Made by a program: the position numbers and the translations under genes. A DNA stretch of 64,000 bases. Origin: Taxillus chinensis (taxonomy: Eukaryota; Streptophyta; Magnoliopsida; Santalales; Loranthaceae). Positions 19,954 through 53,358 of the stretch are shown in pieces. Every line of letters starts with the position of its first letter. Within the stretch, counting starts at the first letter, position 1. Location: assembly GCA_023512835.1 (NCBI GenBank), contig CM042090.1, forward strand, positions 55,601,865 to 55,665,864, written 5' to 3'. The notes under the pieces are model-generated. The model worked only from the letters and a program-made list of their open reading frames with translations. It was not told the DNA's origin and made no database searches.

Positions 19954-21338
19954 TTAAGGTACATAAGGCTTACTATACTTGAAGGTCATTGTTGCTGCTT
20001 TGTCTCTAAGCTCCATTGTCTGCTTCATCGAATAAGTGTTGTGTTGGCTCCAAGATTTGTCCACACTTAAGAATGACTTGATGAAGTAACAGACAAAGGC
20101 CCCGCATCTATCTCTATCTGGCTGTTGTGGCACTTGCTTCTTGCCCCAGAATGTCGCCTTCAGCTTCTCAGTTGGACTCAAGGGAGTGATGCCCAACTCT
20201 TCATATAATCTGACTTTCTTCACAGCTTCAGTCAACCTGAGACACAATGGTTCCCATTGATTCTTTCTTACATACTGCTCTACAATCTGATGAGAATCAA
20301 TCAGAATCATCTGTTTGGACTGAATCATGAAGACAACCATCATGAAATGTGGCGACATGATCCGGTACGGAATTAGGATAGTTGAGAGAGTTCTCCATGC
20401 TTGCTATCCTCAGCAGTTCCGTCGATAAAGGACTGAATGAGATCTATACTGGGAAGATAGCCCTCATTCCAGCACGGCAGAACTTCAAACAAGTGGCCGT
20501 CCTTGTACAGAGATGGAAACAGCCTCATCTCCATTTTAGCAGCCCTAGAGAAGTTGTCAATGTCTTCTATTGTAAAGAGGCCTTTCTCCGAACAAAGGGT
20601 CCGAATGTCATCCGGGGAGAAGGGGTACAGGTCAGAGAAACATCTTCTCTCGGCAGAAGACGTAGCATAGGACATCATTGCCTTACGCACGCTTCCGTCC
20701 ACATCAAGAGGGTCACACGCCGCGTATGATGGGAGGAAGGTGTCAGCTGCGGATGGAGAGGATGGAGGAAGAGCTGCAGTCGAGGAGCTTGGCTGAGAGA
20801 AACGGCTACGTTTGGGGATTTGAACTCCCGGAAGCAATGAAGAGGCAGGCCTTTCGGCACGGGTGGAGGAATGTGATGCAGGACGAGCAGAAGGATCAGA
20901 TGACACTCTCTCCCCCGGTTTGGCAGATCGCCGGGGAGCAACGGGAGGGCGAGCCATCGTGTGCGCCAGGTCCGCGAAGGAGGTAGACAAGGAGTGGACG
21001 GACAAGGCGACTAGGTCCATCTTCTGTTCCATGGAAGTGGAGGAGTCGGTGAGGGCGGAGAGGAGTTGGGCGCCAAGAGCATCAACCTTGGCGGCGATGG
21101 CGGATATTTGGGCGCTATGAGCTTGGGCGTGGCGGTCCGGTGGGCGGAGAGCACAACGTCGAGTGGAACGTGCCAAAAGAAGCACGCCCAAGGGCTAACT
21201 CCGGAGCTTTGGAGGACTCCCCCGCGTGAACAGGAGTAGGAGTGCGCTGGGCAGAGGAGTCCACAGGAGTATCAGCAGCAGCAGCAGAAGGGGCATCCGG
21301 AGCAGCAGAGGCATCCGGAGCAGCTGACCCGCTTTGAC
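19954..21338 (-). pseudogene. Sire-1 third ORF, C-terminal part: helical segment plus Ulp1-type (C48) protease subdomain
   Basis: Downstream continuation of 52030-53358 after removal of Tekay-2. It encodes a Pro/Ala-rich linker, a helical stretch (about 21000-21100, MEQKMDLVALSVHSLS), a charged region and FSRAAKMEMRLFPSLYKDG (about 20480-20560). The last 134 codons (20358-19957) look like the Ulp1/C48 catalytic subdomain. These carry His in MSPHFMMVVF, Asp in MILIDSHQ, and PQQPDRDRCGAFVCYFI, where the second Gln and the Cys sit as in PQQPNGYDCG of yeast Ulp1. Ulp1 proteins process or remove SUMO; activity here is unknown. Three one-base deletions relative to Sire-2 (two near 21140-21180, one near 20392) shift the frame and sum to restore it. 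It ends at a stop codon (19954-19956). Confidence 0.75.
21334..21338. repeat. Target-site duplication of Tekay-2, left copy (TTGAC)
   Basis: TTGAC before the 5' LTR, repeated exactly at 52030-52034. Confidence 0.95.
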
Positions 21339-21804
21339 TGTAATGACTCGTGTGAGACCCGTGTGTAAGAAGTTAACCACAAACACCTTGGATGTTGGTG
21401 CACAAGTTTGAGGTAAGAGATGAGCCCAAGAGGGGACTTTTGGGAGGTGCATGTGACAAGTGGTAACGTGCATTTATGCCCTAGGAAGATGCTATGCATA
21501 TATATGCGGTTTTAAGCTGTTTTTGGCAGATTTTGGAGCTCACTTTTGGTATAGTAGATGGCCTCAAACAATTGGCGTTCAAATTGGCATGCAGGCATGT
21601 TTTTGCATGGTTACCTTGGTTTTGTCATTCTAATCATCTTTTCCCAAAGGACCATGTTGGAATTGTGAATATTTTGGTGTGTATGGATGTGGGAAGGTCA
21701 TAGCTTGTTCCATCAAAACTACGTCATTTTGATGTTGTGTTGTCTATATAAGGAGGAAAAGCACCTCTGTTTTAGGTTTAGGGTTTGTTGCTCCACCAGT
21801 CGTC

Positions 21805-21851
<47 letters not shown>

Positions 21852-23072
21852 GGGAAGGAGAGCTTCTGGTGGCTGCCGGAGCGTCTTGCGTGGGTGGTCG
21901 GAGTCTTGCATGGAAACGGGAGCAGGAGAACATACAAGGTAGGGGTTCTGTTCTTCCTAAATCCTCCTCTGTCCTAGGGTTCTAGGGCAGATTATAGAGT
22001 TATACCTGTTTATATATATATCTAATCCATATAGGTGTGATCTCCTATATGGATGTTGGCCTTCAATGGCGGTTTTTGATGTATTCTGGTGTTGGATGGT
22101 GAGTGCATATTAAGTGTTCGATAAAATGCCTGTGTGGATATGTCTGTGTGAATATGCCTAGTATGTGTTTGATAATATGCCTGTGTGGCTGGGTTTGTGG
22201 GTTTGTGAATGTATGCATGTTAAGCGTTTGGTAAAATACCTGTGAGACTCTGCATGTCAAGTGTTTGATTTTATGCCTGATGGGCTGTGCGAACTAAGTG
22301 TGGTATTATGCCTGTGAAAGTGTGTATGCTACGTGTTTGGTTTAATGCCTGTGTGACCTTGTATGTTGTGTTTGTGGAACCCGGTGGCTGTGGAAGCCCG
22401 GGACTGGAACTGTTAGCCCGTGTGGCTAAGCCTGAGAGGTTGTGGATATGTTAGCCCGTGTGGCTAAGCCTGAGAGGCTGTGGATATGTTAGCCCATGTG
22501 GCTAAGCCTGAGAGGCTGTGGATATGTTAGCCCGTGTGGCTAAGCCTGAGTGGCTGTGGATATGTTAGCCTATATGGCTAAGCCTGTATGGCTGTGGATA
22601 TGTGTGTGGCATGTGAATGTGGGATACAACTTGTTTACATTTTATTGTCCCTACACTGCACCTGTACACTCTCATGTAGACGCTAGGAGCATGGGATGGG
22701 TTGGGGGAGATATGATCCCCTATTGAGCCGTGGTTGCTCACCCCTCCCTCTATGTTGTGTTTTCTTTCAGGAACATACAGGCATTAGGTGGGACCCCAAG
22801 GTGGAAGGCCTTATTTACTTTACTGTCTACCATTTATGTTATTTTTATGGGAATTGATGTAACCCAGTGGGGATGGATTGAAAAGAGGATTTTGTTGTAA
22901 TAAAGACTGGTTTTGGATTGTGGATTGCTTTTATGAACTTTACTTTCTTGAATGTGTTGTGGATGTTTAAAATGTTATATTCGCATTTTGCACCCTAACC
23001 CCTTTGCCCTCCGTGTGGGTACAAGGGGAGTCATGTGCCGGTTTCCTCGGGTTGGAAATCCGGGGCGTGACA
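21339..23072 (+). repeat. 5' LTR of Tekay-2 (shortened)
   Basis: Same ends as the partner 50099-52029. It lacks about 192 bp between two copies of AATTGGCGT (junction about 21570-21579), and one of the two ACGT palindromes (junction about 21710-21725). It carries one extra 38-bp repeat unit and an (AG)n tract (about 21807-21843). TATA box at 21745-21752. Confidence 0.93.
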
Positions 23073-23075
23073 ATA

Positions 23076-23087
23076 TGGTATCAGAGC
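23076..23087 (+). other. Primer-binding site of Tekay-2 (initiator tRNA-Met type)
   Basis: TGGTATCAGAGC three bases after the LTR end, complementary to the 3' end of initiator methionine tRNA. Confidence 0.92.
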
Positions 23088-23480
23088 ATGGTCTAGTTGG
23101 CCTAGGGTAGTGGGCGGACCTAGTTATCCTAAGTCCTTTGGAGGAGCCTGGAGGGACATGTCTGATCAACATGGTCCTCTTTGAGCCTCCAAGGTGTACT
23201 TAGGGTAGTCCAGTCTTGTGGTAGGATTTGCATGCATTGGCATTAGGGCACTAGTTGCATTTGCTGTGAATGTGTGCTAAACTGTGGATAAGATAATATG
23301 ATTAAGTGAAATGTGCAACTCTGATTTGTTTGGCAATGCGTACTGAACTGTGAAATGTGATTGATACAATGTATGTGTGTAATGTTATGCGATAGTGGAA
23401 TTGATCAGTAGGGTAGAGGTAGTGACGCGATAGATTATAAATTTGTTTTGACGTTGTGCTTCTTACTTCGTGCAGTAAGA
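23088..23480 (+). other. 5' leader of Tekay-2
   Basis: Non-coding leader between the primer-binding site and the gag ATG. It shares a run near 23105-23260 with LARD-2 (about 43090-43255, opposite strand), as expected for packaging sequence kept in a non-autonomous relative. No domain is seen. Confidence 0.7.
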
Positions 23481-24214
23481 ATGCCGCCGAGGAGAGTAAC
23501 ACGTGCGTCCGGGGCAGTGGCTGATGAGTCATCTGCCCGTGAGGGTTCGGATGCGGGACCGTCCGTTGGAGGGCATGCGTTGTTGCTGGCACAGCTACGG
23601 GAAGGCATCCGGCTGGAGGTATGAGAGCTACGGGAGGGACTCCGGCAGGAGGTTCGGGAGGAGGTGCGCCGTGAGATGGCAGCACAGCAGGTGGTGCCAC
23701 CACCACCACCAGTAGGAGAGCTGCCTCGTGAGCGTGAGAGTTCACTGGGTGGTGTACCGACTCGTGCAGAGGATGACGTGGTGACACGGTTCCGAAAGGA
23801 ACAACCTCCGCGATTCAAGGGGGAAGGTGATCCTGTGGTAGGCGAGCGATGGTTGAGGCAGATCGAGCATGTGTTTTCCTTTCTCCTGCCCCGGGAAGAG
23901 GATAAGGTGCGACTGGCCATTCAGCAGCTGGAGGGGGATGCTTTGGAGTGGTGGACGAGTGTCGCGGGGAGCCGTGCGGTGCAACTCATACTTTGGGAGG
24001 AGTTCTTGCAACTCTTCCATGATGAGTTCTTCCCGGGATCAGTGAGATGGCAGAAGAGGGAAGAATTCGGCAGCTTGAAGCAGGGATCCAGGACGGTACC
24101 TGAGTATGAGTAGGAGTTCCGGAGCTTCAGTAGGTTTGCTCCTAAGACTGTAGCGAGGGAGGACCTGAAGGCCGACAAGTTCACTTTGGGCCTTAGGCCA
24201 GCCCTTAGGCAGAG
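23481..24214 (+). pseudogene. Tekay-2 gag, first part
   Basis: Starts at ATG 23481 (MPPRRVTRA), the same start as in Tekay-1. The gag core includes FRKEQPPRFKGEGDP (about 23790-23835), IEHVFSFLLPREEDKVRLAI and GDALEWWTSV (about 23940-23965), and FTLGLRPALRQ at the end. Two in-frame stops occur: TGA at 23622-23624 and TAG at 24111-24113. The first fits loss of a CGA codon. The frame is then cut by Sire-2 and continues at 36659 when one copy of the duplication is kept. Gag would form the capsid shell around element RNA. Confidence 0.87.
24210..24214. repeat. Target-site duplication of Sire-2, left copy (CAGAG)
   Basis: CAGAG before the LTR TG. The right copy (36659-36663) reads CAGAC, one mismatch. 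The right copy gives the better gag frame (Arg-Gln-Thr). Confidence 0.8.
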
Positions 24215-24684
24215 TGATGGTCCCTTGGAGCCTAGAGGGGGGGTGAATAGGCTCTTATCGAAACTCTTTTCTTTCTCTTAAGATGCAAACACTTATCTAG
24301 TTAAGTGATAGAATCACTGCGGAAGATAACCAGATAGTGGAAGTATTTTATTTTATTATCACAAGATAAATACAACAAAATAGAAGCAAGACTCTCTTAC
24401 ACTCTGTTTACAAATGAACTCACACTCTAGCCAAATTCTATCTCCAAAGATGAAAACACTTGTGCATACACAGAATTAGTCTTTTCTTAACAAATGCACA
24501 CACGCTCTCTTTTTCAACTCATTTAATAATGTACAAGTATGAATATTTATACAAAACATTCCTAAGAGACAACCTTGGAACTTGTAGTTCCGGAATGCGT
24601 TCAGCACTAACTATCCCTCGGTAATCTCTCTGCCTTGACTGCTGCGGATTGTGGAGCTCAAGATCTTGGGTTTGAAGAGTATAA

Positions 24685-24909
24685 GGGCATGTTTGGTTGG
24701 GGTGTTTTCTGTTTTCGTTTTCAAAATGTAATAGCTGTTTTTGGGTACAAAAAATCAAAAATTGAAAACAACAAAAACTTGTTTTCATTTTTTATGTCCT
24801 AAAGAAAGAAAACAACATTTTATTGTTTTCAGTTTTATGTTTTTTATACTCGAAAACAGCTATCACATTTTGAAAACGAAAACAGAAAACGGGTAAAACA
24901 AACATGCCC
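24685..24909. mobile_element. PIF/Harbinger (Tourist)-like MITE inside the Sire-2 3' LTR
   Basis: 225 bp absent from the partner LTR. Terminal inverted repeats read GGGCATGTTTG...CAAACATGCCC, and the TAA flank (24682-24684 and 24910-24912) is a 3-bp target duplication. The inverted repeats extend far inwards (TTTTCTGTTTTCGTTTTCAAAATGT on one arm, shown as its last part TTCGTTTTCAAAATGT, is mirrored on the other), so most of it folds back on itself. No coding capacity. The TAA duplication and GGGC start fit the PIF/Harbinger group. Confidence 0.88.
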
Positions 24910-25194
24910 TAAGTGTCTTTGTGAGTTCCCAGATACAATTAAGGTTGTGTCCACATATCCGGATGATCCACGTGTAAGATTCTTCAGGTTCTCAATAAAT
25001 TCGTCTTACATCGGGACGCCACGAGCTGATAACTTCAAATGCGGTTGAGTTGAAGCAGTGTCTTCTTGGTCCGGTGTAATTTTCCTTACTCCGTAGCTAA
25101 TGAAGCTCAGAACCTTACTCCGTGTCAGTGGTTGCTTACTCCGTATCTATTTAGTACTGGAATCCTTAGTCCGTGTCAGCGCTTCCTTACTCCG

Positions 25195-25385
25195 CATGTA
25201 AGTTCCTTACTCCGTATGTAAGTTCCTTACTCCGCATGTAAGTTCCTTACTCCGTATGTAAGTTCCTTACTCCGGGCGAGTCTTGAAAAGTCTGATGACT
25301 TATTCCGTGTCAGCGCTTTCTTACTCCGCATGTAAGTTCCTTACTCCGTATGTAAGTTCCTTACTCCGTATGTAATTTCCTTACT
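25195..25385 (+). repeat. Regular 20-bp tandem repeat in Sire-2 3' LTR
   Basis: At least six copies of TTACTCCGTATGTAAGTTCC with single-base variants. The 5' LTR equivalent is at about 36150-36345. Confidence 0.9.
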
Positions 25386-25621
25386 CCGGGCGAGTAACAT
25401 ATCCGGATTCCTTACTCCGCATCTGGTTTCCTTACTCCGCACTTATCCTTTAAGTTCTTAGTCCGTACGAGTGTTCCTTATTCCGTATGTATTTGTTACT
25501 TGGTTATTTACCAAGTGTTTGACGACACTCACTTTTGTCCGGATCAGGATTATGTATCCTGTCCTTAGCTTTGCTCTCACGAGTGCATTTCTGGATTAGT
25601 AACATATCTTCTGCAATGATC

Positions 25622-27975
25622 CGGTACGGAATGAGGATGGTTGAGAGAGTTTTCCATGGCTTGTTATCCTCAGCAGTTCCATCGATGAAGGACTGAATTA
25701 GATCCACACTGGGAAGATAGCCCTCATTCCAACACGGCAGAACGTCAAACAAGTGCCCATCTTTGTAGAGAGATGGAAACAGCCTCATCTCCATTTTAGT
25801 AGCTCTCGAGAAGTTGTCAATGTCTTCTATAGTAAAGAGTCCTTTCTCCGAACAGAGGGTCTGAATGTCGGCCGGGGAGAAAGGGTACATTTCAGAAAGA
25901 CATCTTCTCTCAGCAGAAGATGCAGCATAGGATTTCATTGCCTTGCGCAAGCTTCCATCCGCATCAAAAGGGTCAAACTCCGCATATGATGGGAGGAAGG
26001 TATCAGCTGCGGATGAGGAGGATGGAGGAGGAGCTGGAGCTGCAGTAGAGGAGCTTGGTTGAGAGAAGCGGCTTCGTTTGGGAATTTGAACTCCCTGAAG
26101 CACTGAAGTGGCAGGCCGCTTCTCAGTCCGAGTAGATGGTTGTGGGGCAGAAGGAGTAGACGGATCAGATGACACTCTCTCCCCCGGTTTGGCAGATCAC
26201 CGGGAAGCAATAGGAGGACGAGCCATCGTGTGCGCCAGATCCGCGAAGGAGGTAGACAAGGAATGGACGGATGTGGCGACAAGATCCATTTTCTGCTCCA
26301 TGGAAGTGGAGGAGTCAGTGAGAGTGGAGAGGAGTTGGGCGCCGAGGGCATCAACTTTGGTAGCGATGGCGGAAATTTGGGCGCTTTGAGCTTGGGCGTG
26401 GTGGTCCAGCTGGGCGGAAAGCACAGCGTCGGAGTGGACCGTGCCAAAAGAGGCACGACCAAGGACCAACTCCGAAGCTTTGGAGGACTCCCCCGCATGA
26501 ATAGGAGCAAGAGTGCATTGGGCAGAGGAGTCCGCAGGAGTATCAGCAGCCTTAGGAGCAGCCGGAGCATCAGAGGCATCCGGAGCATCGGAAGCATCCG
26601 GAGCATTGGAGGCATCCGGAGCAAGAGACCCGCTTTGACTAGATAAGTCAACCACGGGAATCGCGGCAGCAGGAGAAGAGGGTCCAGCCTTAGCAGGGGA
26701 AGGACTCCGTGCAGCAGGGACTGGGCCGGAGGGTGTAGGGAACGGCACATCGGGAATGGCAGCCGGCGTAAGAAAGCCTTGGTCCAAGTTCCAGATGATC
26801 ATGGTCTCCGGGGATTGGGTATTGCGTGTGTAAAACACCCGGAGATCGGTGTCAGGAATGGAGGAGGTGTGGGCTAGGTTGAAACGGAGCCAGAGGTCCG
26901 TTAAGGTGCCGGCAGAGAGATGGTCAAGGTAATCTCAGGGTTGAGGTAGGGGAGGCAAAGGGGCTTCCGGAGAAGCGGCCGGGATATCAGCGGTGGCGAC
27001 AGCAACAGCGGTATCAACCGCGGCAGCAATAGCGGATGTGGAGGGAGTGGGGACATCAGCAGCAGAGGGGGCTGAGGAAATAGCGTTAGACGCACTGCGC
27101 TGAGAGGGCCCCGCAACCTCGGACGGTTCAGCATGGACGCTTGGTTGGGAGGCCCGTGAGTGGGAGGGCGCAGCAACAGACCGAATCCGGGAGGATCGGT
27201 GTGCAGAACTGACCTCGTGGGCTTGGCTATCGGAAGGGTCACCAACAGAGCTGCCTTGTTGTTTCGAGGCAGGGAGAATGCGGAGAGCTACAGTGGGTCG
27301 GCGAGCGGTCATGTTCCCGTCCGGCGTAAGGTAACGGAGGTAATAAGCCGAGGGAAACGAGACAGCAGCAAATCGGGCGAAATGGTCCGGACGTAGATGC
27401 CGGAAGACAATGCTGAGGATGCGCCCGAAGGAATGGTTTTTGGGACCATTCTGCAGCAAACGAAATAAGAATATCCCCCAATCCATCGGAAGACCTTCAA
27501 AAACGCCGTACATGGCCAGGAAAAGGTCGTACGGAACTGAGTCCAGGGCGGATGTGCGAGCCAGTAGGCATCGACTTAGAATAGTCGCCATACATCGATA
27601 GCAACCCTGGAAGGATTTCACCTTGTATTCCTTCCCCTTGTTCGTGCAACCCATAGAAGCCGCCATTGGATCGGCATCCGGGCGCTGTGGTTCACCAAGA
27701 GGTAGGTGGAGAGCAGCGCGGAGAACAGCCGGAGTGATGATGATAGATTCACCGCGGACATAAGAGGTTATGGAATCGGTGGTGCAGCGAATCCGTTGGT
27801 AATACTCAAGAATGTCATCGATAAGAAGATCGACGGGATTGGAGATCAGGCTGAGTATATGCGAGGCTTCAAGGAGAGGGCGAAGCTGGAAAAACCAATC
27901 CGGAGGATTAGAAACAGCATTCCAATCAACTAGATGGCCAGGATTAACGCCGGAAAGAGAGATTCTGGGTGCCAT
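25622..27975 (-). pseudogene. Sire-2 third ORF: transposon-associated N-terminal domain, low-complexity linker, truncated Ulp1 region
   Basis: ATG at 27975 (MAPRISLSGVN), the same start as in Sire-1 (53358). About 784 codons stay in one frame to the deletion junction, broken only by TGA at 26935-26937 and 26197-26199. In Sire-1 the first codon is CGT-like Arg and the second CGA, so both fit CpG transitions. Residues ~1-230 form a globular domain (RGESIIITPAVLRAALHLP; LFLAMYGVFEGLPMDWG). Residues ~230-350 are Ser/Ala/Pro-rich. A DASDAPDASDAP repeat and a helical MEQKMDLVATSVHSL follow. The frame enters the Ulp1-like region (STILIPYRI) exactly where it is truncated, so the catalytic His, Asp and Cys are lost. 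It is not a typical env-like protein: I see no signal peptide or membrane segment. Confidence 0.78.
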
Positions 27976-29653
27976 TACAGATTGGATGGGAAGGATAAGA
28001 GGAAAGGTGAGGTCTTGACAGTGGAAGGAGCAATGAGAGGTTTAGGGATTTGAAATGAGCAATACTCGTGCTTCGCGGGAATGATCAGAACATATAAGAC
28101 CGAGTCCGCAAATGTCAGCGGGCCTAGGAATGTGCGAGTGAGATAGGGACCCGCGCGACATGCTGATGTCATTAGTCTGGATATCGAGGCGCCTCCGAAT
28201 GAAACGATGTTGTGGAGACCGCATGACCAAGTAAAGATAACAACTGGTTGCCATCCAGAGAAGTGTGTGTGCAACCCGAGATATGTATTTAATGAATCAT
28301 CATTATTCCTCCTCAAAAGCATGCGACATATGAGTATACGTGGATTGTCACAATTGAACAGTGTCAGGAGTCCGGAGGAAAGAGCCGACAATCATCCGAA
28401 GTAAATAATAGTCGTGGAAGAGTATCCGGATGAATAATAGACCTTGTCCGTCGTAAACAGAGTTTGGTGAGAGTGTAGAGTAGATTCCTTTGCAGTCAAA
28501 AAGTCAAAGAGAAGAGAAGTACCACAACACTTCAAATTCGAGACGATGGACTGGATTTATCGATACGGTTGCAAAGAAAATCTGAACCTGTAGCTAAATA
28601 AGGATAAACTGAAAATACAGAAGCTTAACAGGCAAGGATTAGTACGGATTAGAGAAGATAATCAGTGAAAAACAACATAATCCGAACTAATGAGAAACAG
28701 AACTCATGCATGGCTAAGAATATAGTAGACGTATGCAAACGTGAAAGTGATCAATATTACTGAATCAGGGCATATGTCAGATAGCAATACACAGGTTCAT
28801 ATAGGTCAACATAGCGAAACCGTCTTGCTGAACAACGTAGCTAAGATTGATTAAAGAGCATATGATTTGGCCACATTAGGATTCATGAGTGAACAATGAT
28901 AGAGCGAACACATGTTAAAAGAAGGCAGATGATTAGTCGATTAAAATGCATGGTTGAAGAAAGAAAATACATCCAAACATGCCACTTCTCTGATTCAAAA
29001 ACAGCATGTCCAGTCAGATCCGGAAGTAATAGTTTAGAGGAAGGAGAATCCGAGACATATTAGGGGTTCATTGCTGCTCCCCCGTAGATCATTTAATCCT
29101 CTCAATGAAAAGCTCCCCCTCAGATAGACAGTCAGGAAAGAGGTCATGAGACATATATGGGGGGTATTACTGAATAATATATAAAGTATTTTCTCCCCCG
29201 TAGATTTTGCAATCCTCTCGGTTGACCGTTCCGATTTGTAGAAGTTCAGCACTGTCTATCGTATTAGAAAACTATACTTCAGAAGCTGATCAGACTGCGA
29301 TTGAGTATTCATCCACCAGGCATTCCAAGCTAACCCATTTCACTTCTTCAACTATGCATGTTAATAGAGTAATCTAAATGAACATGCTTTTGTCATGTGG
29401 TGATTAATGGAAGTTAAGATCATGAACCCGAAAGAGGTAAATCATATAAACTGTAATTATGTTAGCTTTAAACGACTTCAGTCGGGAAACGCAAGCATCC
29501 TCCCATCATGAGGTTGCGATTAATATTAGAAACATGAACCCGTTAAACAGTAAGTATGATCAGCAATACAGTCAGTAAGTCTCTACTACTTTTAGTAAAC
29601 GTACAATGCATGTTCTGAGAGTAAATGTACTATTGGGTAATTCAAATGTGAAG
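27976..29653 (-). other. Spacer between Sire-2 pol and third ORF, with repeated polypurine motifs
   Basis: No coding domain. On the - strand CTACGGGGGAG occurs at 29077-29087 and 29192-29202, with a related TGAGGGGGAGC near 29112-29123. A TATA-like CTTATATG lies at 28091-28098, about 120 bases upstream of the third-ORF ATG. Repeated polypurine-like units downstream of pol are a described Sirevirus trait. Confidence 0.65.
29077..29202 (-). other. Multiple polypurine-tract-like motifs of Sire-2
   Basis: Three GGGGGAG motifs in 126 bases on the - strand. Equivalents in Sire-1 are at about 54478, 54511 and 54593. Their separation from the 3' LTR by the third ORF is unusual for a functional primer. 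Confidence 0.6.
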
Positions 29654-32085
29654 CTATGCAGAGAAGTCAAGCATACCTAATCGGAAGAGTAGTTCAGAAA
29701 ACCTCGCATCAGGTAGGGGCTTTGTAAGTATGTCTGCTAATTGATCTTCAGTAGCAACATGTTCCAGTGAAATATGCTTTTTGAGAACATGATCGCGTAT
29801 GAAGTGATATCTGACCTCAATGTGCTTTGTCTTAGGATGCATGACAGGATTGTTGCTGATGGCAATTGCACTAGTGTTGTCACAGTAGAGTGGAATAGAT
29901 GACATGTTGAAACCATAGTCAGTAAGTTGACTTTGCATCCAAAGTAGCTATGCGCAACGACTTCCCAAGCAGTATATATTCCGCCTCGGGTAGAGGTTGA
30001 TACGGAATTCCTGCTTCTTACTGAACCAAGAGATCAATCTATTTCCTAGAAACTGACACGTACCGCTTGTGCTCTTCCTGTCGATGCGACATCCAGCGAA
30101 GTCGGCATCAGAGTATCCGGATAAGGTGAAGTTGGACTCCTTTGGGTACCAGAGTCCCAAATTCATCGTTCCCTTGAGATACCTTAATATCCGTTTTACA
30201 TGAAGCATATGTGGCTCCTTGGGATTCGCCTGGTATCGTGCACAGATGCAAGTTGCAAACATAATGTCTGGGCGACTTGCTGTAAGATACAGCAAGGATC
30301 CGATCATCCCTCTGTAGTCAGTCACATTTACTGATATGCCATCCACATCCGGATCTAACTTGGCACTGACAGGCATGGGAGTTTTGACGGGAGATGAACC
30401 TTCCATACCAAACTTCTTAATAAGATCGTGAGTGTACTTAGCCTGATTAATGAAGATTCCTTCCTTTAATTGTTTGACTTCTATTCCAAGGAAGTAGGAC
30501 AGTTCTCCCATCATGCTCATTTCAAACTTGCCTGTCATCAACTTAGCAAACTCTTCACAAAGCTTTGGATTCGTTGATCCGAAAATGATATCATCCACGT
30601 ATATTTGTACGATCAGAGTGTGTCCTTTCTCTTTTCGTAGAAATAGGGTGGTGTCTATCTTCCCTTTTTGGAAGTTGTGTGCAAGTAAGAATTCTGACAG
30701 TGTGTCGTACCAGGCTCTTGGAGCTTGCTTCAAACCATATAGAGCTTTCTGAAGTTTGTAGACAAGATGTCCTGCCTTAGGTTCAATGAAGCCGGGAGGT
30801 TGTTCAACATACACCTCCTCTTGAAGGTCTCCATTCAGGAATGCGCTTTTGACGTCCATTTGATATACTATGAAGTTTTCATATGAAGCATACGCCAGAA
30901 ACATTCGGATTGCCTCAAGTCTTGCCACCGGAGCAAAGGTTTCATCATAATCTATTCCTTCTTCTTGACGATATCCTTTGGCTACCAGTCTGGCTTTGTT
31001 CCGTATTACTATTCTATCCGTATCAAGCTTGTTCCGGAACACCCATTTAACGCCAATGACTTGCTGAGACTTAGGCCTTGGTACTAAGGTCCACACATTA
31101 TTTCTGTTAAATTGATTCAGCTCTTCTTGCATGGCTTCTATCCAATTCGAATCTTGAAGAGCTTCATCTACCACCTTTGGTTCTATTTGAGATAGAAAAC
31201 ACGAGTAAAGACTCATGTTGGAGGTGGCTGCTCTTGTTCTTACACCAACAGCAGGATCACCAATCACTTGATCTGAGGGATGGTTTCGAGTCCATCTATA
31301 ATTCTGTGCATGTGTTGGATGATCTTGAACAATTTGAAGCTCTTCCAGATTGGGTGGTTCAGTTGTACCGGCTGGTTGAGCTTCGTCCGGACTAGATGTT
31401 TCCGTATTAAGAGGTACGGATGAACTAGTTGGTTCTTTAACACTGTTTCTTCCAGTGTTAACTAGTCCGGACGGACTTGAAGGTGCTCCGGAATTTTGGG
31501 TATCCGTAGGAGTATATCCGGAGCTAAATGGTAGTCCGGAGTCAGAGTCATCCGTAGCATCATCCATAAAATTTCGTTGTGTTTCGCTGATGCTACGTGG
31601 TTGGTCAGGATGTGTAACAGGAACATTCATAAACTTCGAATAATCGACGTTGCTGTCCATGACCTGCATATTAGAATTTGAAGAACCGACTTTTTGACCA
31701 ATCGAGATTAGCTTCATCAAAAGTCACATGGATAGATTCTTCAACTTTAAAAAGTTTTCTATTCAAGACCCGATAAGCCTTGCTATGTAGTGAGTACCCG
31801 ACAAAAATCCCATCATCAGATTTTGGTTCAAATTTATTCCGGGTCTCTTTGCCATTTAACAGCATATAGCAAGTACACCCAAAGGCTCTGAAATGTGAAA
31901 TTGAAGGTTTTCGTCTTCTCCACATCTCATAGGGTGTTTTCATGGTAGATTTATTTATTAGAGTTCTGTTCTGAACATAGCCAGAGCGTGGACACAGCTT
32001 GACCCATAGGCGAGAGGAAGCGTTGCCCCTGCTAACATGGATCTACCAGCTTCAACTAAAGTACGATTCTTGCGCTCAGTTACCG
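29654..32085 (-). pseudogene. Sire-2 pol: integrase C-terminal part, reverse transcriptase and RNase H
   Basis: Open frames 31671-31943, 29948-31720 and 29654-29938 cover the integrase tail (KTPYEMWRRRKPSISHFRAFGC), then RT and RNase H. RT motifs are [20 protein letters not shown] (about 30830-30890) and the catalytic [14 protein letters not shown] (about 30570-30610). RNase H follows with [15 protein letters not shown] and LYCDNTSAIAISNNPV. This wording is typical of Sireviruses. One extra A near 31690 and an indel near 29970 shift the frame. Otherwise a 590-codon stretch is open, making it the best preserved pol in the copia elements here. Confidence 0.88.
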
Positions 32086-33005
32086 CATTTTGTTGTGGGG
32101 TTCTGGGAGCAGAGAAGTCATGTTGTATGCCCTATTCAGAACAATATGATCTCATTTCTGAAAAATCAAATTCTGTACCATGATCACTCCTGATGCATTT
32201 AATGCTCAGTCCTTGTGAGTTGCTTATCCAGTTGAAGAGATCTACAAGATGCTCAAAAGTTTGATCCTTTGATTTCAGGAACATCACCCATGTGTATCTG
32301 GTGAAATCATCGATAACCACAAGGGTATATCTTGCACCAGCTAGTGATGGAACAGATATAGGACCACAGAGGTCCATATGAAGAAGTTGTAGAGGAGCAG
32401 TTATTGAGTTAACTGATTTGCTCTTAAAGCTGTGTTTGGTCTGTTTGCCAAGTTGGCATTCTCGACAGAGAGATTCTCTGGAGAACTTGAGTTTGGGTAG
32501 ACCAGTGATAAGATCAAGTGACGCTAATTTAGACAAAGTCTTAAAGTTTAAATGTGCGCATCGCTTGTGCCATAGCCAACTATCTTCATCTGATGCTTTC
32601 GTGAGGAAGCATACAGGGTCAGAAGAATTATTTCTTAAGACCACTAAGTATATGTCCCCATCTCTTGATCCGGATAACTTAACATCTCCGGATAAGTTTT
32701 CTCTTCTTGTACGTGGTGTTGGACAAAAAGGAAACAAGAAATCCTTTGTCACATAAATTACTGACACTTAGCAAATTATGCTTTAAACCTTCGACTAGTG
32801 CAACTTTAGTGATTGATACACAGCCGTTAGTTAGAGTGCCATACCCGACAGTCTTACCTTTGCTGTTGTCGCTATATGAAACGGATGGACCTTGTTTATC
32901 ATTAACTTCTACAAGCAGAGTCTGATCACCCGTCATATGTCCGAAGCATCCACTATCAAGGATCCCCTTGCTTTTATTGATCTTTAACTTCAAGTGATCC
33001 GGCAA
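32086..33005 (-). pseudogene. Sire-2 pol: protease and integrase core
   Basis: The protease signature ILDSGCFGHMTGD (Asp-Ser-Gly, about 32945-32990) opens the segment. The integrase zinc module (WLWHKRCAHLNF...CRECQLGKQ) and core follow: Asp in LLHMDLCGP, Asp in CIRSDHGTEF. The Glu region follows at the frame break near 32130. Copia order (protease, integrase, RT, RNase H) is kept. Two frames (32679-33005 and 32132-32767) overlap at a frameshift. The same segment is deleted in Sire-1. Confidence 0.86.
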
Positions 33006-33039
33006 TGCATTCTAGAGATGCTCCTGAAGGACAACAGTT

Positions 33040-35341
33040 TACACTTTTGGTGCCCAAACTTGTTTCGGGCGGTTAGAGAGAGCAGCAGTATTGTCAACAT
33101 TTACGGATTTGATTTTGCTAGGACTCTTAGCTTTCCAAGTTGACATTAACTTGTTAGTTTCAGCTACTTCTTTTATTTGGGTTTTCTTGGGAGAGACACT
33201 CCTTTTAGATTTAGATTTTGTTTTGCTCGAAGAACCCCTTTTATAAAACTGATCTTTATTGGATTGAAATTGATTACAAAGCCAGGTATCGGATAGACTC
33301 CAACATTCATAGTGATAATGACCCATTTCCCTACGGATGGAACAGACACTATAATGTGAAGTACAAAACAGGGGATACGGGTCTCTTAGTTTTTTACGGA
33401 CTTTCTACTCTGTTCCCTGTGGCCTAATCCATTGTGTTTGGGTGACGCGCTCTTGGCCCTAAATGCGTCAGCCTTAGCCTTGTCTTTCTTTTTGGGTGCT
33501 ACAGTTTTGGCTTTAACTGCAGCAGCCTTCCCTTTATCTTTAGTTACGGGTGTTTCTTGGTTCGGGAAGTGCGATAACGGCCTCGGCTCCACGATCATAA
33601 ACTATGGTGCCACCTGAAATGAAACCATCCAACGGTTTAGATGTACTAACAGGATATAAGTTGGTTAGTTTAGGAGTGAAATCCGGAGGACACTCAGTAG
33701 CTTGAGCTATGGAAGTTGATGGTTCGGAACCTAGGCTAGGTTTGACTCGGATGCCGTTAGGATCAGTCCTAAAGGTAGAGGCTATTTTCCCGGATTTTAG
33801 CCACTTACGATTTATTTCCTTTTCCTGTTCCAGTTCATTTTCGAGTCTTTTTACTATAACTTTTAGGCCTGAGAGATTGGTATTTAACAAATGATTTGCA
33901 GCTCTTAGATCATGATACCAAGCTTCTTTTCCTCTGAAGTCAGTGATGTCCTTTTCGAGTCTATTAATAGTAAATTCAAGACGTTTATTCTGACTTTCCA
34001 TATCTTTGTACATTTGAGTAATTATTAGTCTCTCATTCTTTTCATGATCACATGCAGTAGTAAGAGATTTTAATTTACTCAGGAGCTCAGAGATAGTAGG
34101 TACCTCAGTATTTGCCATGAGGTAGACGTTCGGCTTAGTGGTCGGCTCATCATCTGAGGATTCCTCCTCTTCTTCCGAGCCACTCATGTATTTTGTCACG
34201 AGCGCCTTCCTCTTGCTCTTGCTGTTGTCGGAGGTGGAGCGGCGAGGAGTTACCTTGTCACTTTTCTCGGCCACTTTTGATTTGGACCTGCATTCCTTGG
34301 CCCAGTGACCGGTTTTCCCACAGTTGAAGCATTCCTGGGAACTGGACTCCGGTCACTCCTTCCTTTGGAACGATGATGATGAGCATCTTCTGAACCCTTT
34401 TCTGCTTTTCCGTAGGAATCGCTCAAAGGATTTGACAAGAAGGGCTATCTCTTCCTCCTCATCAGAATCAGAAGTCTCGGACACGTCCGTATCATCATTC
34501 CTCAGTATGTTTAGACATTCTGTAGCTTTGAGAGCTACCCCCTTTTCTTTCCGAGCTATTTTCTCATCCCCGTCGAGTACTTAAACCTGACTTCGTGAGT
34601 CCGCAGCTCTCCATACGGTTCTTCAAGGGGAACATACTGCGCTTTTTGTCCGATTGCATCTGGAGTTGTTTGGAGTAGTAGCGATCCGGCAAGGAGCGAA
34701 AGAACTTGTCATTGATCCGGGATTGAGAATAGTGCTCATTGACGGTCTTGACTCAAGAATGAGCTTGCCGAATCTCCGATAGATGCTTTCGAGTGATTCG
34801 CCCGGTTTATGATTAAAACTCTCAAAGTTCTGTCGAGAGTGCAGATCACATTCTGCATCTGGGACCGACTCCCCTCATAGAGGATTGTCAGTTTGTCCCA
34901 AACAGCTTTTGCTGTCGTGTAGCCCTGAACGTCTGTGAAAGCCTCGGAATCCAAAGACGATGTAACATAAGCCAGAGCCTTTTCACTAGCGCACTGCCAG
35001 GCTCTTTCATCGTTGGTAAGTTCAGCATCTGTCTTTGGCCTCCTAACTCCATGTTCTCCGATAGTCATCGGAATTGGAATCTCCTGATGAAGACATAGCC
35101 ACATAAGATGATCATGGCAAACCATAAACATCTTCATGCGAGCTTTCCACTGGGAGAAAAGCTCAGGTGTGAATTTGGGCGGTTTCGTTAAAGTAAAGCC
35201 AGAACTCCGTGGTTGAGAAGCGGCGGCAGCAGCAGGTTGAGGTGGGTCGACATTTTCACTGTTGCTTCGATTCGGGTTGGGCTCCTGTGCACCTCCGGAG
35301 TTAAGGCGAGTGTTGAATAGCATACTGCTTTCTTCGGCCAT
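33040..35341 (-). pseudogene. Sire-2 gag with two zinc knuckles and coiled coil
   Basis: Start chosen at ATG 35341 (MAEESSMLFN), shared with Sire-1 (59867). The N-terminal part has the copia gag wording FTLTKPPKFTPELFSQWKAR and AKAVWDKLTILYEG. A frameshift near 34820 breaks it. A canonical zinc knuckle CFNCGKTGHWAKEC lies at about 34290-34335. A long charged coiled coil (33540-34274, LEFTINRLEKDITDF) follows, a Sirevirus hallmark. A second knuckle at about 33305-33346 has lost its second Cys (Arg instead), while Sire-1 keeps CSICREIGHYHYEC. Gag would assemble particles. Confidence 0.85.
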
Positions 35342-35388
35342 TTCTGAGATTGAAAGAGTGGGATCTCTACTTAGAACAAGTAGAACTT

Positions 35389-35400
35389 GCTCTGATACCA
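35389..35400 (-). other. Primer-binding site of Sire-2 (initiator tRNA-Met type)
   Basis: On the - strand TGGTATCAGAGC, two bases from the 5' LTR end. Confidence 0.9.
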
Positions 35401-35402
35401 CT

Positions 35403-36658
35403 TGATGGTCCCTTGGAGCCTAGAGGGGGGGTGAATAGGCTCTTATCGAAACTCTTTTCTTTCTCTTAAGATGCAAACACTTATCTAGTTAAGTGATAGA
35501 ATCACTGCGGAAGATAACCAGATAGTGGAAGTATTTTGTTTTATTATCACAAGATAAATACAACAAAATAGAAGCAAGACTCTCTTACACTCTGTTTACA
35601 AATGAACTCACACTCTAGCCAAATTCTATCTCCAAAGATGAAAACACTTGTGCATACACAGAATTAGTCTTTTCTTAACAAATGCACACACGCTCTCCTT
35701 TTCAACTCATTTAATAATGTACAAGTATGAATATTTATACAAAACATTCCTAAGAGACAACCTTGGAACTTGTAGTTCTGGAATGCGTTCAGCACTAACT
35801 ATCCCTCGGTAATCTCTCCGCCTTGACTGCTGCGGATTGTGGAGCTCAAGATCTTGGGTTTGAAGAGTATAAGTGTCTTTGTGAGTTCCCAGATACAATT
35901 AAGGTTGTGTCCACATATCCGGATGATCCACGTGTAAGATTCTTCAGGTTCTCAATAAATTCGTCTTACGTCGGGACGCCACGAGCTGATAACTTCAAAT
36001 GCGGTTGAGTTGAAGCAGTGTCTTCTTGGTCCAGTGTAATTTTCCTTACTCCGTAGCTAATGAAGCTCGGAACCTTACTCCGTGTCAGTGGTTGCTTACT
36101 CCGTATCTATTTAGTACTGGAATCCTTAGTCCGTGTCAGCGCTTCTTTACTCCGCATGTAAGTTCCTTACTCCGTATGTAAGTTCCTTACTCCGTATGTA
36201 AGTTCCTTACTCCGCATGTAAGTTCCTTACTCCGGGCGAGTCTTGAAAAGTCTGATGACTTATTCCGTGTCAGCACTTTCTTACTCCGCATGTAAGTTCC
36301 TTACTCCGTATGTAAGTTCCTTACTCCGTATGTAATTTCCTTACTCCGGGTGAGTAACATATCCGGATTCCTTACTCCGCATCTGGTTTCCTTACTCCGC
36401 ACTTATCCTTTAAGTTCTTAGTCCGTACGAATGTTCCTTATTCCGTATGTATTTGTTACTTGGATATTTACCAAGTGTTTGACGACACTCACTCTTGTCC
36501 GGATCAGGATTATGTATCCTGTCCTTAGCTTTGCTCTCACGAGTGCATTTCTGGATTAGTAGCATATCTTCTGCAATGATCAAATAAACACAAAAGATCT
36601 CAGATCAAATTACATAAGGCTTTATCAGCATTATCCAAATTCTGGGTTTGATCCAACA
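35403..36658 (-). repeat. 5' LTR of Sire-2
   Basis: Complete LTR of 1256 bp with TG...CA ends. It lacks the MITE found in its partner, so the MITE arrived after insertion of Sire-2. The CTTACTCCG array is at about 36045-36410. Confidence 0.93.
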
Positions 36659-43277: not shown

Positions 43278-43280
43278 TAT

Positions 43281-48643: not shown

Positions 48644-49774
48644 GTGAAGGCTGAGCATCAGCGGCCGGCAGGCATGTTACAGCCATTGCCCATAGCGGAG
48701 TGGAAGTGGGACCACATAGCGATGGATTTTATGACTGGTCTTCCACCCACCACAGGGAGGAAAGATATGATTTGGGTGATTGTGGATCGACTCACAAAGT
48801 CGGCCCATTTCCTGGCTGTTCGCGAGCGGGACTCTATTGGGACCTTGAGTCAGCTGTACATGAACGAGATTGTGAGACTGCATGGAGTACCATCATCGGT
48901 TGTCTCTGACCGGGATTCGCGGTTCACTTCCCGTTTCTGGGCAGGTTTGTAGGAAGCTATGTGGACCAAATTTCACTTGAGTACAGCTTTCCACCCTGAG
49001 ACTGACGGCCAGACAGAGAGGACGAATCAGACTTTGGAGGACATGTTACGGGCCTGTGTGTTAGATTTTGGGGGTTCGTGGGTGACTCACCTTCCTTTGG
49101 TGGAGTTTGCCTACAACAACAGTTATCAGGCATCCATTGGGATGGCTCCTTTTGAGGCGTTGTATGGGCGGCGGTGTCGATCACCTTTGTGTTGGACCGA
49201 GGTGGGGGAGACAGCTCTCTTGGGACCACAGTTGGTTCAAGAGGCTACCGAGAAGGTTAAGTTGATTCGTCAGCGTTTGTTATCAGCTCAAAGTCGGCAA
49301 AGATCTTATGCGGATCAGTGGCGGCGACCTTTGGAGTTTTCTGTTGGTGATCATGTGTTTCTTCGTGTTTCTCCACGTCGTGGACATCGACGGTTTGGGA
49401 GAGGTTCCAAGCTATCTCCACGGTTTATTGGTCCTTTTGAGATTCTGGATCATGTGGGGCCTGTGGCCTACCGGTTAGCGTTACCACCGCGGCTGAGTCG
49501 AGTGCACAACGTGTTTCACGTGTCCCAATTGCGGAAGTATCACCCTGACCCCACTCATGTGATCAATTGGGGGACATTGGACATTGCGGATGACATGTCC
49601 GTTGTTGAGGCCCCTATCCGTATCCTAGATCGGCGAGAGAAGCTTTTGCATGGTCATGCTATTCCTTTGGTTCGCGTGCTGTGGCAGCACCGTGGCATTG
49701 AGGAGGAGACATGAGAACGTGAGTCCGTGATGCGTGAGCAACACCCGGAATTGTTTGAGGACGAACAATCTTAA
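48644..49774 (+). pseudogene. Tekay-2 pol: integrase core, GPY/F module and chromodomain
   Basis: Catalytic residues: Asp in [11 protein letters not shown] (about 48715-48745), Asp in [13 protein letters not shown] (about 48898-48935) and Glu in FHPETDGQTERTNQ (about 48985-49030). The GPY/F module is KLSPRFIGPFEIL...GPVAYRLALPP (about 49408-49490). The terminal chromodomain-like part (VEAPIRILDRREKLL...LVRVLW, about 49595-49690) defines the chromovirus class and is thought to steer insertion to marked chromatin. TAG (48950-48952) and TGA (49712-49714) are in frame and fit CAG and TGG codons. The natural end is TAA at 49772-49774. Confidence 0.92.
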
Positions 49775-50098
49775 GTGTAGGAGGTGGCTGTTGGCCAAGG
49801 GATAGTGATGTGTTTCCTTGTATTAGTTGTGTATGATTTGGTGTTTGTTTTGTCTTTTAGACATGTGTTCATATTTGTGATGTGTTTTGAGATGTGTATT
49901 TGTGACATGTGAATATGTGTTATATGCATTATTGTGATGCATGTGGTTATGGATTATGGTCGTACCTTGTTATGTGCTGTGCGCGGTGTATGACCCATTT
50001 GGGTGTTGTGGCTCGCCGTGTGGCAAATGGGTAGCTTGTGTTTGTTTTCCTCGTATGTCATTTCTTTTCGAGGATGAAAAGTCTTAAGGGGGAGAGGA
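49775..50098 (+). other. 3' untranslated end and polypurine tract of Tekay-2
   Basis: Non-coding tail shared with LARD-1, LARD-2 and Tekay-1, ending in AAGGGGGAGAGGA (50086-50098) at the 3' LTR. The uninterrupted site matching the Tekay-1 insertion point is at about 49850-49865. Confidence 0.88.
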
Positions 50099-50792
50099 TG
50101 TAATGACCCGTGTCTGACCCGTGTGTAAGAAGTTAACCACAAACACCTTGGATGTTGGTGCACAAGTTTGAGGTAAGAGATGAGCCCAAGAGGGGACTTT
50201 TCGGAGGTGCATGTGACAAGTCGTAACGTGCATTTATGCCCTAGGAAGATGCTATGCATATACATGCGGTTTTAAGCTGTTTTGGCAGATTTTGGAGCTC
50301 ACTTTTGGTATAGTAGATGGCCTCAAACAATTGGCGTGCAAGAACAAAAGTTTCTTAGAATGAGGTCCTCTATCTACCACAGAAATTTCAGGGCATTTGG
50401 AGCTGCACGTGAATTCACCCATTTCACGTGCAAGCATATTTTTGCTTCTCAGACCTCTACAAGATGCAAGGAGGCTTGGGTTGAAGTTTGAGTGCATTTG
50501 GAGCTGCACGCCAATTGGGGAATTGGCGTTCAAATTGGCGTGCAGGCATGTTTTTGCATGGTTACCTTGGTTTTGTCATTCTAATCATCTTTTCCCAAAG
50601 GACCATGTTGGAATTGTGAATATTTTTGTGTGTATGGATGTGGGAAGGTCATAGCTTGTTCCATCAAAACTACATCGTTTTGATGCTGGGGTTCACTTAA
50701 TCAAAACTACATCATTTTGATGTTGTGTTGTCTATATAAGGAGGAAAAGCCCCTCTGTTTTAGGTTTAGGGTTTGTTGCTCCACCAACCGTC

Positions 50793-50852
<60 letters not shown>

Positions 50853-52029
50853 GAAGGAGAGCTTCTGGTGGCTGCCGGAGCGTCTTGCGTGGGTGGTCGG
50901 AGTCTTGCGTGGAAACGGGAGCAGGAGAACATACAAGGTAGGGGTTCTGTTCTTCCTAAATCCTCCTCTGTCCTAGGGTTCTAGGGCAGATTATAGAGTT
51001 ATACCTATTTATATATATGTAATCCATATAGGTGTGATCTCCTCTATGGATGTTGGCCTTCAATGGCGGTTTTTGATGTATTCTGGTGTTGGATGGTGAG
51101 TGCATATTAAGTGTTCGATAAAATGCCTGTGTGGATATGTCTGTGTGAATATGCCTAGTATGTGTTTGATAATATGCCTGTGTGGCTGGGTTTGTGGGTT
51201 TGTGAATGTATGCATGTTAAGCGTTTGGTAAAATACCTGTGAGACTCTGCATGTCAAGTGTTTGATTTTATGCCTGATGGGCCGTGCGAACTAAGTGTGG
51301 TATTATGCCTGTGAAAGTGTGTATGCTACGTGTTTGGTTTAATGCCTGTGTGACCTTGTATGCTGTGTTTGTGGAACCCGGTGGCTGTGGAAGCCCGGGA
51401 CTGGAACTGTTAGCCCGTGTGGCTAAGCCTGAGAGGCTGTGGATATGTTAGCCCGTGTGGCTAAGCCTGAGAGACTGTGGATATGTTAGCCCGTGTGGCT
51501 AAGCCTGAGAGGCTGTGGATATGTTAGCCTATATGGCCAAGCCTGTATGGCTGTGGATATGTGTGTGGCATGTGAATGTGGGATACAACTTGTTTACATT
51601 TTATTGTCACTACACTGCACCTGTATACTCTCATGTAGACGCTAGGAGCATGGGATGGGTTAGGGAGACATGATCACTACTGAGCTGTGGTTGCTCACCC
51701 CTCCCTCTATGTTGTGTTTTCTTTCAGGAACATATAGGCGTTAGGTGGGACCCCAAGGTGGAAGGCCTTATTTACTTTACTGTCTACCATTTATGTTATT
51801 TTTATGGGAATTGATGTAACCCCAGTGGGGATGGATTGAAAAGAGGATTTTGTTGTAATAAAGACTAGTTTGGATTGTGGATTGCTTTTATGAACTTTAC
51901 TTTCTTGAATGTGTTGTGGATGTTTAAAATGTTATATTCGCGTTTTGCACCCTAACCCCTTTGCCCTCCGTGTGGGTACAAGGGGAGTCATGTGCCGGTT
52001 TCCTCGGGTTGGAAATCCGGGGCGTGACA
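50099..52029 (+). repeat. 3' LTR of Tekay-2
   Basis: Full-length LTR with both ACGT palindromes (about 50661-50722), TATA box (50733-50740), a long (AG)n tract followed by a G10 run (about 50793-50852), and the 38-bp repeat (about 51409-51562). Confidence 0.94.
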
Positions 52030-53358
52030 TTGACCAGATAGGTCAACAACGGGAATGGCGTCAGCAGGAGAAGAGGGTCCATCCTTAGCAGGGGAAGGAC
52101 TCTGTGCGGCATGGACCGGGCTGGAGGGGGTAGGGAACGGCACATCTGGAATGGAGGCCGGCGTAAGAAAGCCTTGGTCCAAATTCCAGATGATCATGGT
52201 CTCATAGCGAGTGTAAAACACCCGGAGAACGGTGTCAGGAATGGAGGCAGTGTGGGCAAGGCTAAAACAGAGCCAAAGGTCCATTAAGGTGTCGGTGGAG
52301 AGATGGTCAAGGTAGACTCGTGGTTGAGGGAGGGGAGGCAAAGGAGCTTCCGGAATAGATTCCGGGACATCAGCAATGGCGGCAGCAACGACGGTATCAA
52401 CGGCGGCAGCAACAGCGGAAGTGGAGGGAGTGGGGACATCCGCAGCAGAAGGGGCTGAGGAAACCGCTTTAAGGACACTATGCTGAGATGGCCCCGTAAC
52501 CTCGGAGGGTTCGGCATGGACGCTATGCTGGGAGGCCCGAGAAATGGAAGGTGCAGCAATGGACCGAATCCGGGAGGATCGGTGAGCAGAGCTGACGTCA
52601 GGGGCATGGCTGTCGGAGGGGTCACCAATAGAACTGCCTTGTTGTTCCGCGGCAGGGAGAAGGCGGAGAGCTATAGAAGGACGGCAGGCCGTCATGTTCC
52701 CATCAGGCGTAAGATAGCGAAGGTAATAAGCCGGAGGAAATGGAACAACATCATAGCGGGCGAAATGGTCCGGATGAAGATGCCGGAAGACAATGCTTAG
52801 TATGCGCCCGCAGGAATGGTTCTTGGGTCCATTCTGCAGCAGTCGGAACAAAAACGTCCCCCAATCCATCGGAAGACCTTCGAAAACGCCGTACATGGCC
52901 AGAAGAAGATCATACGGAACAGAGTCCAGAGAGGAAGTGCGAGCCAGTAAACATCGACTCAGTATGATCGCCATACAGCGATAGCGACCTTGGAAGGACT
53001 TCACCTTGTACTCCTTGCCTTTATAGGTGCAACCCATAGAAGCCACCATGGGATCGGCATCGGGGCGCTGTGGTTCACCTGGGGGTAGATTGAGAGCAAT
53101 GCGGAGAACGGCGGGGGTGATTAGGATGGACTCACCACGAATAAAGGAGATGATGGAGTCGGTGGTACAGTGGATCCGTTGGTAGAACTCAAGAATGTCG
53201 TTAATAAGAAGATCGACAGGATTGGAGACCAAGTTGAGTATGTGAGAGGCTTCTAGAAGAGGGCGAAGATGGAAAAACCAGTCCGGAGGGTTGGAGATAG
53301 CGCTCCAATCGACCAGATGGCCGAGATTGACGCCGGAAAGAGAGGTTTTGGGTGCCAT
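52030..53358 (-). pseudogene. Sire-1 third ORF, N-terminal part: plant transposon-associated domain
   Basis: ATG at 53358 (MAPKTSLSGVN). 441 codons are open up to the Tekay-2 insertion at 52030, with no stop. The first ~230 residues form a compact domain (WFFHLRPLLEASHILNLVSN; RGESILITPAVLRIALNLP; MYGVFEGLPMDWGTFLFRLL). They resemble the putative plant transposon protein domain of Athila third ORFs, including the one at 62533. A Ser/Ala/Pro-rich linker follows. Relative to Sire-2 it has an intact Arg codon (PQPRVYLDHL) where Sire-2 has TGA. The ORF continues at 21338. Its position downstream of pol matches the env-like ORF of SIRE1, but the content differs. Confidence 0.78.

Follow-up and report, generated by a model that had tools for sequence, protein, structure and literature searches.

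Does a plant long terminal repeat (LTR) retrotransposon carry a gene of its own for a protein that ends in a SUMO-protease-like domain? The question is raised by a stretch of 64,000 nucleotides of Taxillus chinensis (assembly GCA_023512835.1, contig CM042090.1, positions 55,601,865 to 55,665,864 of the forward strand), hereafter the window, in which coordinates are counted from the first letter and strands are given as (+) or (-). Two related elements lie in it on the minus strand, Sire-1 (18455-61264) and Sire-2 (24215-36658). An earlier note had described them as Sirevirus-type copia elements with a third open reading frame (ORF) fused to a Ulp1-type (C48) protease part. The ORF does exist in both copies, between pol and the 3' LTR and in sense orientation, the position of the env-like genes, and we show below that it has been maintained by selection. 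Its last part, preserved in Sire-1, is a putative C48 peptidase. We hold this anatomy of the third gene to be highly probable, while the activity and the role of its product deserve more guarded statements.

A third gene downstream of pol

In Sire-1, the third ORF is split into three minus-strand pieces. The first one (52030-53358, 443 codons) consists of a N-terminal domain resembling PF20167 and a linker rich in Ser, Pro and Ala; the second one (20400-21338) changes frame once, at about 21160-21137; and the third one is the C48 piece (19954-20403, 149 codons and a stop), identified by PF02902 and by alignment with Ulp1 and SENP2. The open frame of ~900 codons attributed to Sire-1 in the earlier note does not stand, as this copy is broken by a nested LTR element and, in the tblastn blocks, by at least two frame changes, the one mentioned above and another near 20400, directly before the C48 piece. 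The Sire-2 ORF (25616-27975 (-)) is otherwise in a single frame, with two in-frame stops (26937-26935 and 26199-26197). This frame then runs without a further stop into the first C48 strand (ILIPYRI) and, at the 6-bp microhomology GATCAT (25616-25621 (-)), passes into the interior of the 3' LTR. The "same ORF" reported for Sire-2 is therefore present down to 25616. Beyond that point the deletion has taken away the C48 core, the spacer and ~77 bp at the start of the 3' LTR. One template gives rise to both LTRs, and the 5' LTR of Sire-2 is whole; the deletion thus most likely took place at or after insertion, and the parent of Sire-2 would have had the deleted stretch, which in Sire-1 corresponds to the C48 core. 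Both copies of the third ORF in the window are dead. Its full length can be estimated at ~900 codons by adding the remainder of the Sire-1 C48 piece to the 786 codons of Sire-2. The long middle of the ORF is rich in Ser, Pro and Ala and includes the basic motif PKRSR. In Sire-1 the stop lies ~140 bp ahead of the 3' LTR.

The evolution of this ORF was studied by comparing Sire-1 and Sire-2 over piece A (442 codons, 53358-52030) and the core of piece B (242 codons, 21137-20403), both outside the C48 part. The ratio of nonsynonymous to synonymous divergence (omega) is 0.18 in piece A (dN = 0.087, dS = 0.477) and 0.20 in the piece B core (0.28 for piece B in an earlier, looser alignment), against 1.20-2.14 in the two wrong frames of each piece. 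Differences accumulate in third codon positions (9.3, 8.8 and 28.2% at the three positions in A; 8.6, 4.9 and 23.7% in B), and a non-coding linker has no such periodicity (13.3, 13.7 and 15.3%). Within pol, omega is 0.16 for a reverse transcriptase (RT) piece of 132 codons and 0.38 for an integrase/SH3 piece of 330 codons (wrong frames 0.76 and 1.29). The low values in the two pieces, compared with their wrong frames and with the RT, indicate purifying selection comparable to that on pol. Purifying selection thus acted on the ORF that both elements share, and what follows pol in this family, ahead of the 3' LTR, is a genuine gene. That the ORF could be a chance neighbour of these elements is ruled out by the codon-periodic divergence between two separate insertions.

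As a separate observation, dS in the third ORF (0.48 and 0.37) is about double the values for pol (0.19 and 0.20) and for the linker frames (0.18-0.23). CpG sites hold 54 of the 205 differences in piece A, too few for CpG decay to explain more than part of the raised dS, and it does not explain the periodicity. An exchange of third ORFs between subfamilies is possible, as the raised dS hints.

The C48 piece

The peptides that the earlier note quoted as Ulp1-like are present in 20403-19954 (-). PF02902 (Peptidase_C48) is the sole Pfam family listed for these 149 codons, at E up to 1 as well as up to 10, with a significant score (20.8 bits, E = 3.9e-4, cut-off 20.7). The alignment is partial and concerns the Gln/Cys half only (profile positions 159-208 of 217, residues 88-139). 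In separate global alignments, H19, D36, Q94 and C100 are in register with Ulp1 and SENP2 (codons on the minus strand of Sire-1: His 20349-20347, Asp 20298-20296, Gln 20124-20122 and Cys 20106-20104), which bears out the order and context that had been claimed for them. The step from His to Asp is 17 residues, as in Ulp1, and the pattern H-16-D-(25 to 100)-Q-5-C has one occurrence among the six-frame open stretches of at least 60 amino acids in the window. From base composition, the probability that a particular stretch stays open over 149 codons is about 8e-5.

Could this likeness be fortuitous and the C48 piece be no relative of proteases? The narrow Pfam score and the lack of a relative in the PDB would be compatible with that, yet the catalytic spacing is right and its pattern is unique in the window. 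Moreover, none of 2000 shuffles reached the score of the local alignment with either reference: the SENP2 alignment, which spans from His through Asp and Gln to Cys, scores 58 for a best shuffle of 49, and that of Ulp1, restricted to the Gln-Cys stretch, scores 48 with a narrow margin over a best shuffle of 47. A chance match is consequently very improbable. As judged from its sequence, the piece is related to C48 peptidases, has all four catalytic residues and is a putative enzyme, and the protease would probably be active in intact relatives.

Several observations nevertheless weigh against a selected protease fusion. The PF02902 score barely passes, by 0.1 bit. The residue beside the catalytic His is Phe, whereas Ulp1 and SENP2 have Trp at that place. 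No C48 match was obtained at E up to 10 from the pieces that lie upstream, 20930-20376 and 26196-25619, so the N-terminal half of the fold was undetected, and a search of the C48 fragment against the PDB returned no relative at E up to 1 (one unrelated Ig-like chain appeared at E = 1.5). The single-sequence AlphaFold model of the piece is worthless (predicted local distance difference test, pLDDT, of 49, helices only), and a second structure prediction also failed (pLDDT 44). It is because of the undetected half-fold and the worthless model that the claim goes no further than a relationship to C48 with all catalytic residues in place. The third-position composition of the piece is unlike that of the rest of the ORF. 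The C48 part is found in one of the two copies, the omega values given above being those of the ORF outside it, and two of the selection controls are less clean than the others: one of the RT wrong frames has an omega of 0.37 (1.65 for the other one) and the three linker frames have 0.58-0.80. Finally, in the judgement given in the accessible text of PMC6117577, SUMO is an unlikely target of the KIU proteins of Mutator-like elements (MULEs), to which we compare the third protein below.

These points bear on the relationship between the C48 piece and the ORF that precedes it. The piece might be a transduced passenger with no role in the element, a fragment that this Sire lineage captured beside its 3' LTR from a host ULP gene or a MULE-borne KIU. 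The presence of the C48 core in one copy of two, the frame break just upstream and the deviating third-position composition could all be understood in this way, although this last feature is noisy as a sign of foreign origin and was not relied on. Gene capture by LTR elements is also documented, most captures being reported to decay in the available text of the sources (PMC13317346; PMC7264820). Yet, the Sire-2 copy has the start of the C48 domain in the ORF's own frame, the rest having been lost by deletion into the LTR; besides, the Sire-1 piece is open over its 149 codons with all catalytic residues present, and its stop is found only ~140 bp before the LTR. A passenger is therefore unlikely, albeit an alternative to be taken seriously. 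Instead, the run of the Sire-2 frame into ILIPYRI without a stop supports the fusion of the ORF with the C48 domain. To that extent the SUMO-protease-like fusion proposed in the earlier note is upheld, whereas a complete fold and an intact copy were not recovered. In sum, a significant C48 match was found, and a second family member has the ORF, without the C48 core.

A N-terminal domain shared by copia and gypsy elements

The N-terminal domain of the third ORF has a homologue in the same window. When piece A of Sire-1 was used as a tblastn query with the window as database, its part 53358-52630 (-) matched an ORF downstream of the integrase of a Ty3/gypsy element (62533-63266 (+), with one frame change) at E = 6e-20. 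The match is made up of two blocks, 62533-63132 (28% over 163 residues) and 63150-63266 (41% over 39), and the local score between both ORFs is 159, compared with a mean of 29.6 (sd 4.5, maximum 53) in 1000 shuffles. PF20167 (Transposase_32), which the earlier note had suggested checking, is the only family listed for all three N-terminal pieces: the 243-residue pieces of both Sire copies score 16.8 and 19.2 bits and the gypsy piece 17.8, all below the cut-off of 45. A longer, 456-residue piece of Sire-1 matched no Pfam family at E up to 1. On these profile scores, the domain is a distant relative of PF20167 and not a member by the cut-off. We take the gypsy element to be of Athila type, presumably, from its integrase motifs. 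In the accessible text on sunflower elements, PF20167 was assigned to the 3' ORF of Athila 14 (PMC11728184). The authors of MASiVEdb describe the env-like gene of Sireviruses and of some gypsy elements as being of unknown origin, and that of Sireviruses as being of unproven function (PMC3414828, as far as its accessible text goes), and the N-terminal homology between the third ORF and the gypsy ORF bears on the origin of the Sirevirus env-like genes. We judge it at least as interesting as the protease piece.

Along the lines of what has been proposed for SIRE1, the third protein could also be of env-like or movement type, the likeness to C48 being incidental. Its position and orientation are those of the Sirevirus env-like genes in the available descriptions (PMC3414828; PMC6317226). 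Nevertheless, the C48 match exceeds chance, and a 19-residue hydrophobicity scan of the third ORF showed no clear transmembrane helix, the strongest stretches having means of 1.62 (Ala/Val-rich) and 1.60 (the C48 strand itself). This makes the possibility improbable. Two pieces scanned against NCBIfam had no match, and no relatives elsewhere were confirmed in viral_contigs or genome_contigs. A scan for bacterial promoters was set aside as not meaningful in a plant.

Possible function and known systems

The third protein is most likely a KIU-like fusion of a transposon domain with a protease for ubiquitin-like (Ubl) modifiers, which we regard as probable with a fair measure of reserve. In the KIU genes of plant Vandal/MULE elements, a Ulp1 domain is fused to a transposon protein (PMC13317346; PMC6117577), and VANC proteins strip DNA methylation from their own elements (PMC13317346; PMC5735166), in both cases according to the accessible text. 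By analogy with these KIU/VANC proteins, the N-terminal part might hold the protein on element DNA, RNA or particles, where the protease would free nearby host proteins of SUMO or a related modifier; deconjugation at the chromatin or the particles of the element could then weaken silencing, or help nuclear entry and integration. Such an anti-silencing role is a tentative proposal with clearly less than an even chance of being right.

Alternatively, the C48 domain could mature the element's own proteins and leave SUMO untouched. CE-clan proteases can be processing enzymes, as adenain-type proteases mature proteins in some viruses. NeSL elements and one Utopia element have a Ulp1-like protease N-terminal to the RT, as described in the available text of PMC4640811. 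In the Sire family, however, the C48 module is placed on a separate third ORF. The pol of copia elements also includes an aspartic protease already, though no protease domain was found by Pfam in the scanned Sire pieces. A particle protease thus seems quite unlikely to us.

The closest parallel to the KIU-like fusion that we favor is provided by the KIU/Kaonashi ULP-like genes, which are related to VANC and, like the third ORF, join a transposon protein and a Ulp1 domain in an extra gene; their carriers are DNA transposons and not LTR retrotransposons. VANC proteins carry DUF1985/DUF287 (PMC5735166, accessible text), neither of which is among the Pfam matches of the third-ORF pieces at E up to 1, or up to 10, where the HMMER filters drop most weak matches. 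Athila-type gypsy 3' ORFs with PF20167 offer a parallel to the N-terminal domain of the third ORF, with which the gypsy ORF of the window, presumably of this type, aligns; this one gave no C48 match in the three frames of 63100-64000, where the window ends. Ginger1, Crypton and NeSL/Utopia elements resemble the Sire elements in having a Ulp1-type domain (PMC2836005; PMC3212892; PMC4640811), but they are DNA transposons, tyrosine-recombinase elements or non-LTR elements, and the partner domains given in the accessible text are unlike those of the third ORF. As to the Sirevirus env-like ORF of SIRE1 type, the available text does not mention C48, and Ulp1, C48 and PF02902 are absent from the main text of PMC6317226. 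Sireviruses are named in the accessible part of PMC13317346 only as carriers of captured genes and as sources of small interfering RNAs. The impression of the earlier note that this arrangement is undescribed for Sireviruses holds in the open-access literature searched, the accessible text of which showed no LTR retrotransposon with a Ulp1/C48 domain; most subscription papers and Repbase are outside this scope, and an earlier report is quite possible.

If the proposal is true, this would be the first case among LTR retrotransposons of a strategy that plant DNA transposons are known to use, and LTR retrotransposons would join the mobile elements that have repeatedly recruited Ulp1 domains. The third gene may offer a clue to the dealings of such elements with their host. 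The combination of a selected third gene, a shared N-terminal domain and a recognizable enzyme piece makes the origin and function of env-like genes testable. A complete scenario would involve a Sirevirus lineage with a working Ubl protease fused to an Athila-type env-like domain, env-like genes interchangeable across superfamilies and a KIU/VANC-like anti-silencing factor in this family; as a whole, we find it rather doubtful.

Classification of Sire-1 and Sire-2

The domain order assembled from pieces of both elements is gag, zinc knuckle, GAG-pre-integrase, integrase, SH3 and RVT_2, which assigns them to Ty1/copia. The gag-pol remains of Sire-2 (29657-35402 (-)) follow this copia order, from gag and CCHC to RVT_2. 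The LTRs of Sire-1 were delimited by blastn at 59929-61264 (-) for the 5' LTR, with the C-rich signal near its end, and 18455-19810 (-) for the 3' LTR; those of Sire-2 are a whole 5' LTR (35403-36658 (-)) and a 3' LTR that lacks its 5' end (24215-25621 (-)). The published 16-mer at the junction of the Sirevirus 5' LTR and primer-binding site (PBS) is CA/ATTGG (or AGTGG)/TATCAGAGC, and the C-rich integrase signal is situated about 21 bp from the LTR end (PMC2829016, accessible text). Sire-2 has the exact 16-mer in its G variant, CA/AGTGG/TATCAGAGC (35389-35404 (-)), and Sire-1 has one mismatch to the consensus. The C-rich signal is also found, as ATTCACCCCCC(C)TCTAGGC at ~22 bp from the LTR end. 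The terminal polypurine tract (PPT) of Sireviruses is given as AGGGGGAG with AT/TG attachment in the same source. That of Sire-1 is degenerate (TTTGGGAG-AT/TG, five of the eight octamer positions, AT/TG being kept), and in Sire-2 the junction between the PPT and the 3' LTR is deleted. The cluster of multiple PPTs that precedes the 3' LTR as a Sirevirus signature was found in neither element. In the available text of PMC6317226, 74% of the elements of the SIRE lineage have a sense extra ORF after pol (eORF-3'F). Sire-1 and Sire-2 are here called Sirevirus-like Ty1/copia elements, with a third ORF in the env-like position, in agreement with the earlier note.

Two further details were observed. 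Each element has a single exact Sirevirus-type PPT octamer on its own strand, upstream of the third ORF (54513-54520 in Sire-1; 29113-29120 in Sire-2). In addition, ~870 bp of the Sire-2 pol (32952-32086), in the GAG-pre-integrase/integrase part, have no counterpart in Sire-1 at 57481/57482.

Nesting of the elements in the window

Self-comparison and domain scans show that the window is filled by a stack of plant-type LTR retrotransposons. The oldest layer is the plus-strand Ty3/gypsy element, the integrase of which lies at 17776-18454 and resumes from 61272. It is interrupted by Sire-1, with the target site duplication (TSD) CCTTC at 61265-61269 and 18450-18454. The integrase frame is continuous by arithmetic across this TSD, and its continuation (61272-61700 (+)) has no Pfam match of its own, the core being at 17776-18454. 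The third ORF of Sire-1 is in turn interrupted by the nested Ty3/gypsy-type element (21339-52029 (+)), which contains further insertions and is flanked on both sides by the TSD TTGAC; its LTR pair (21339-23072 and 50099-52029) was recognized by self-comparison, and gag, protease, RT, RNase H and integrase zinc-binding domains were found in it. Sire-2 sits within this nested element, with flanks (CTCTG/GTCTG) equal at four of five positions. The Kimura two-parameter (K2P) distance between LTRs falls from the outer to the inner elements (Sire-1, 0.033; nested gypsy-type element, 0.020; Sire-2, 0.014), which fits the order of nesting. With an assumed rate of 1.3e-8, the insertions would be about 1.3, 0.8 and 0.5 million years old, respectively.

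Elsewhere in the window, a tandem array with a unit of ~37-38 bp occupies 14044-14917 (+); one of its frames is open over 237 codons and encodes a hydrophobic repeat peptide.

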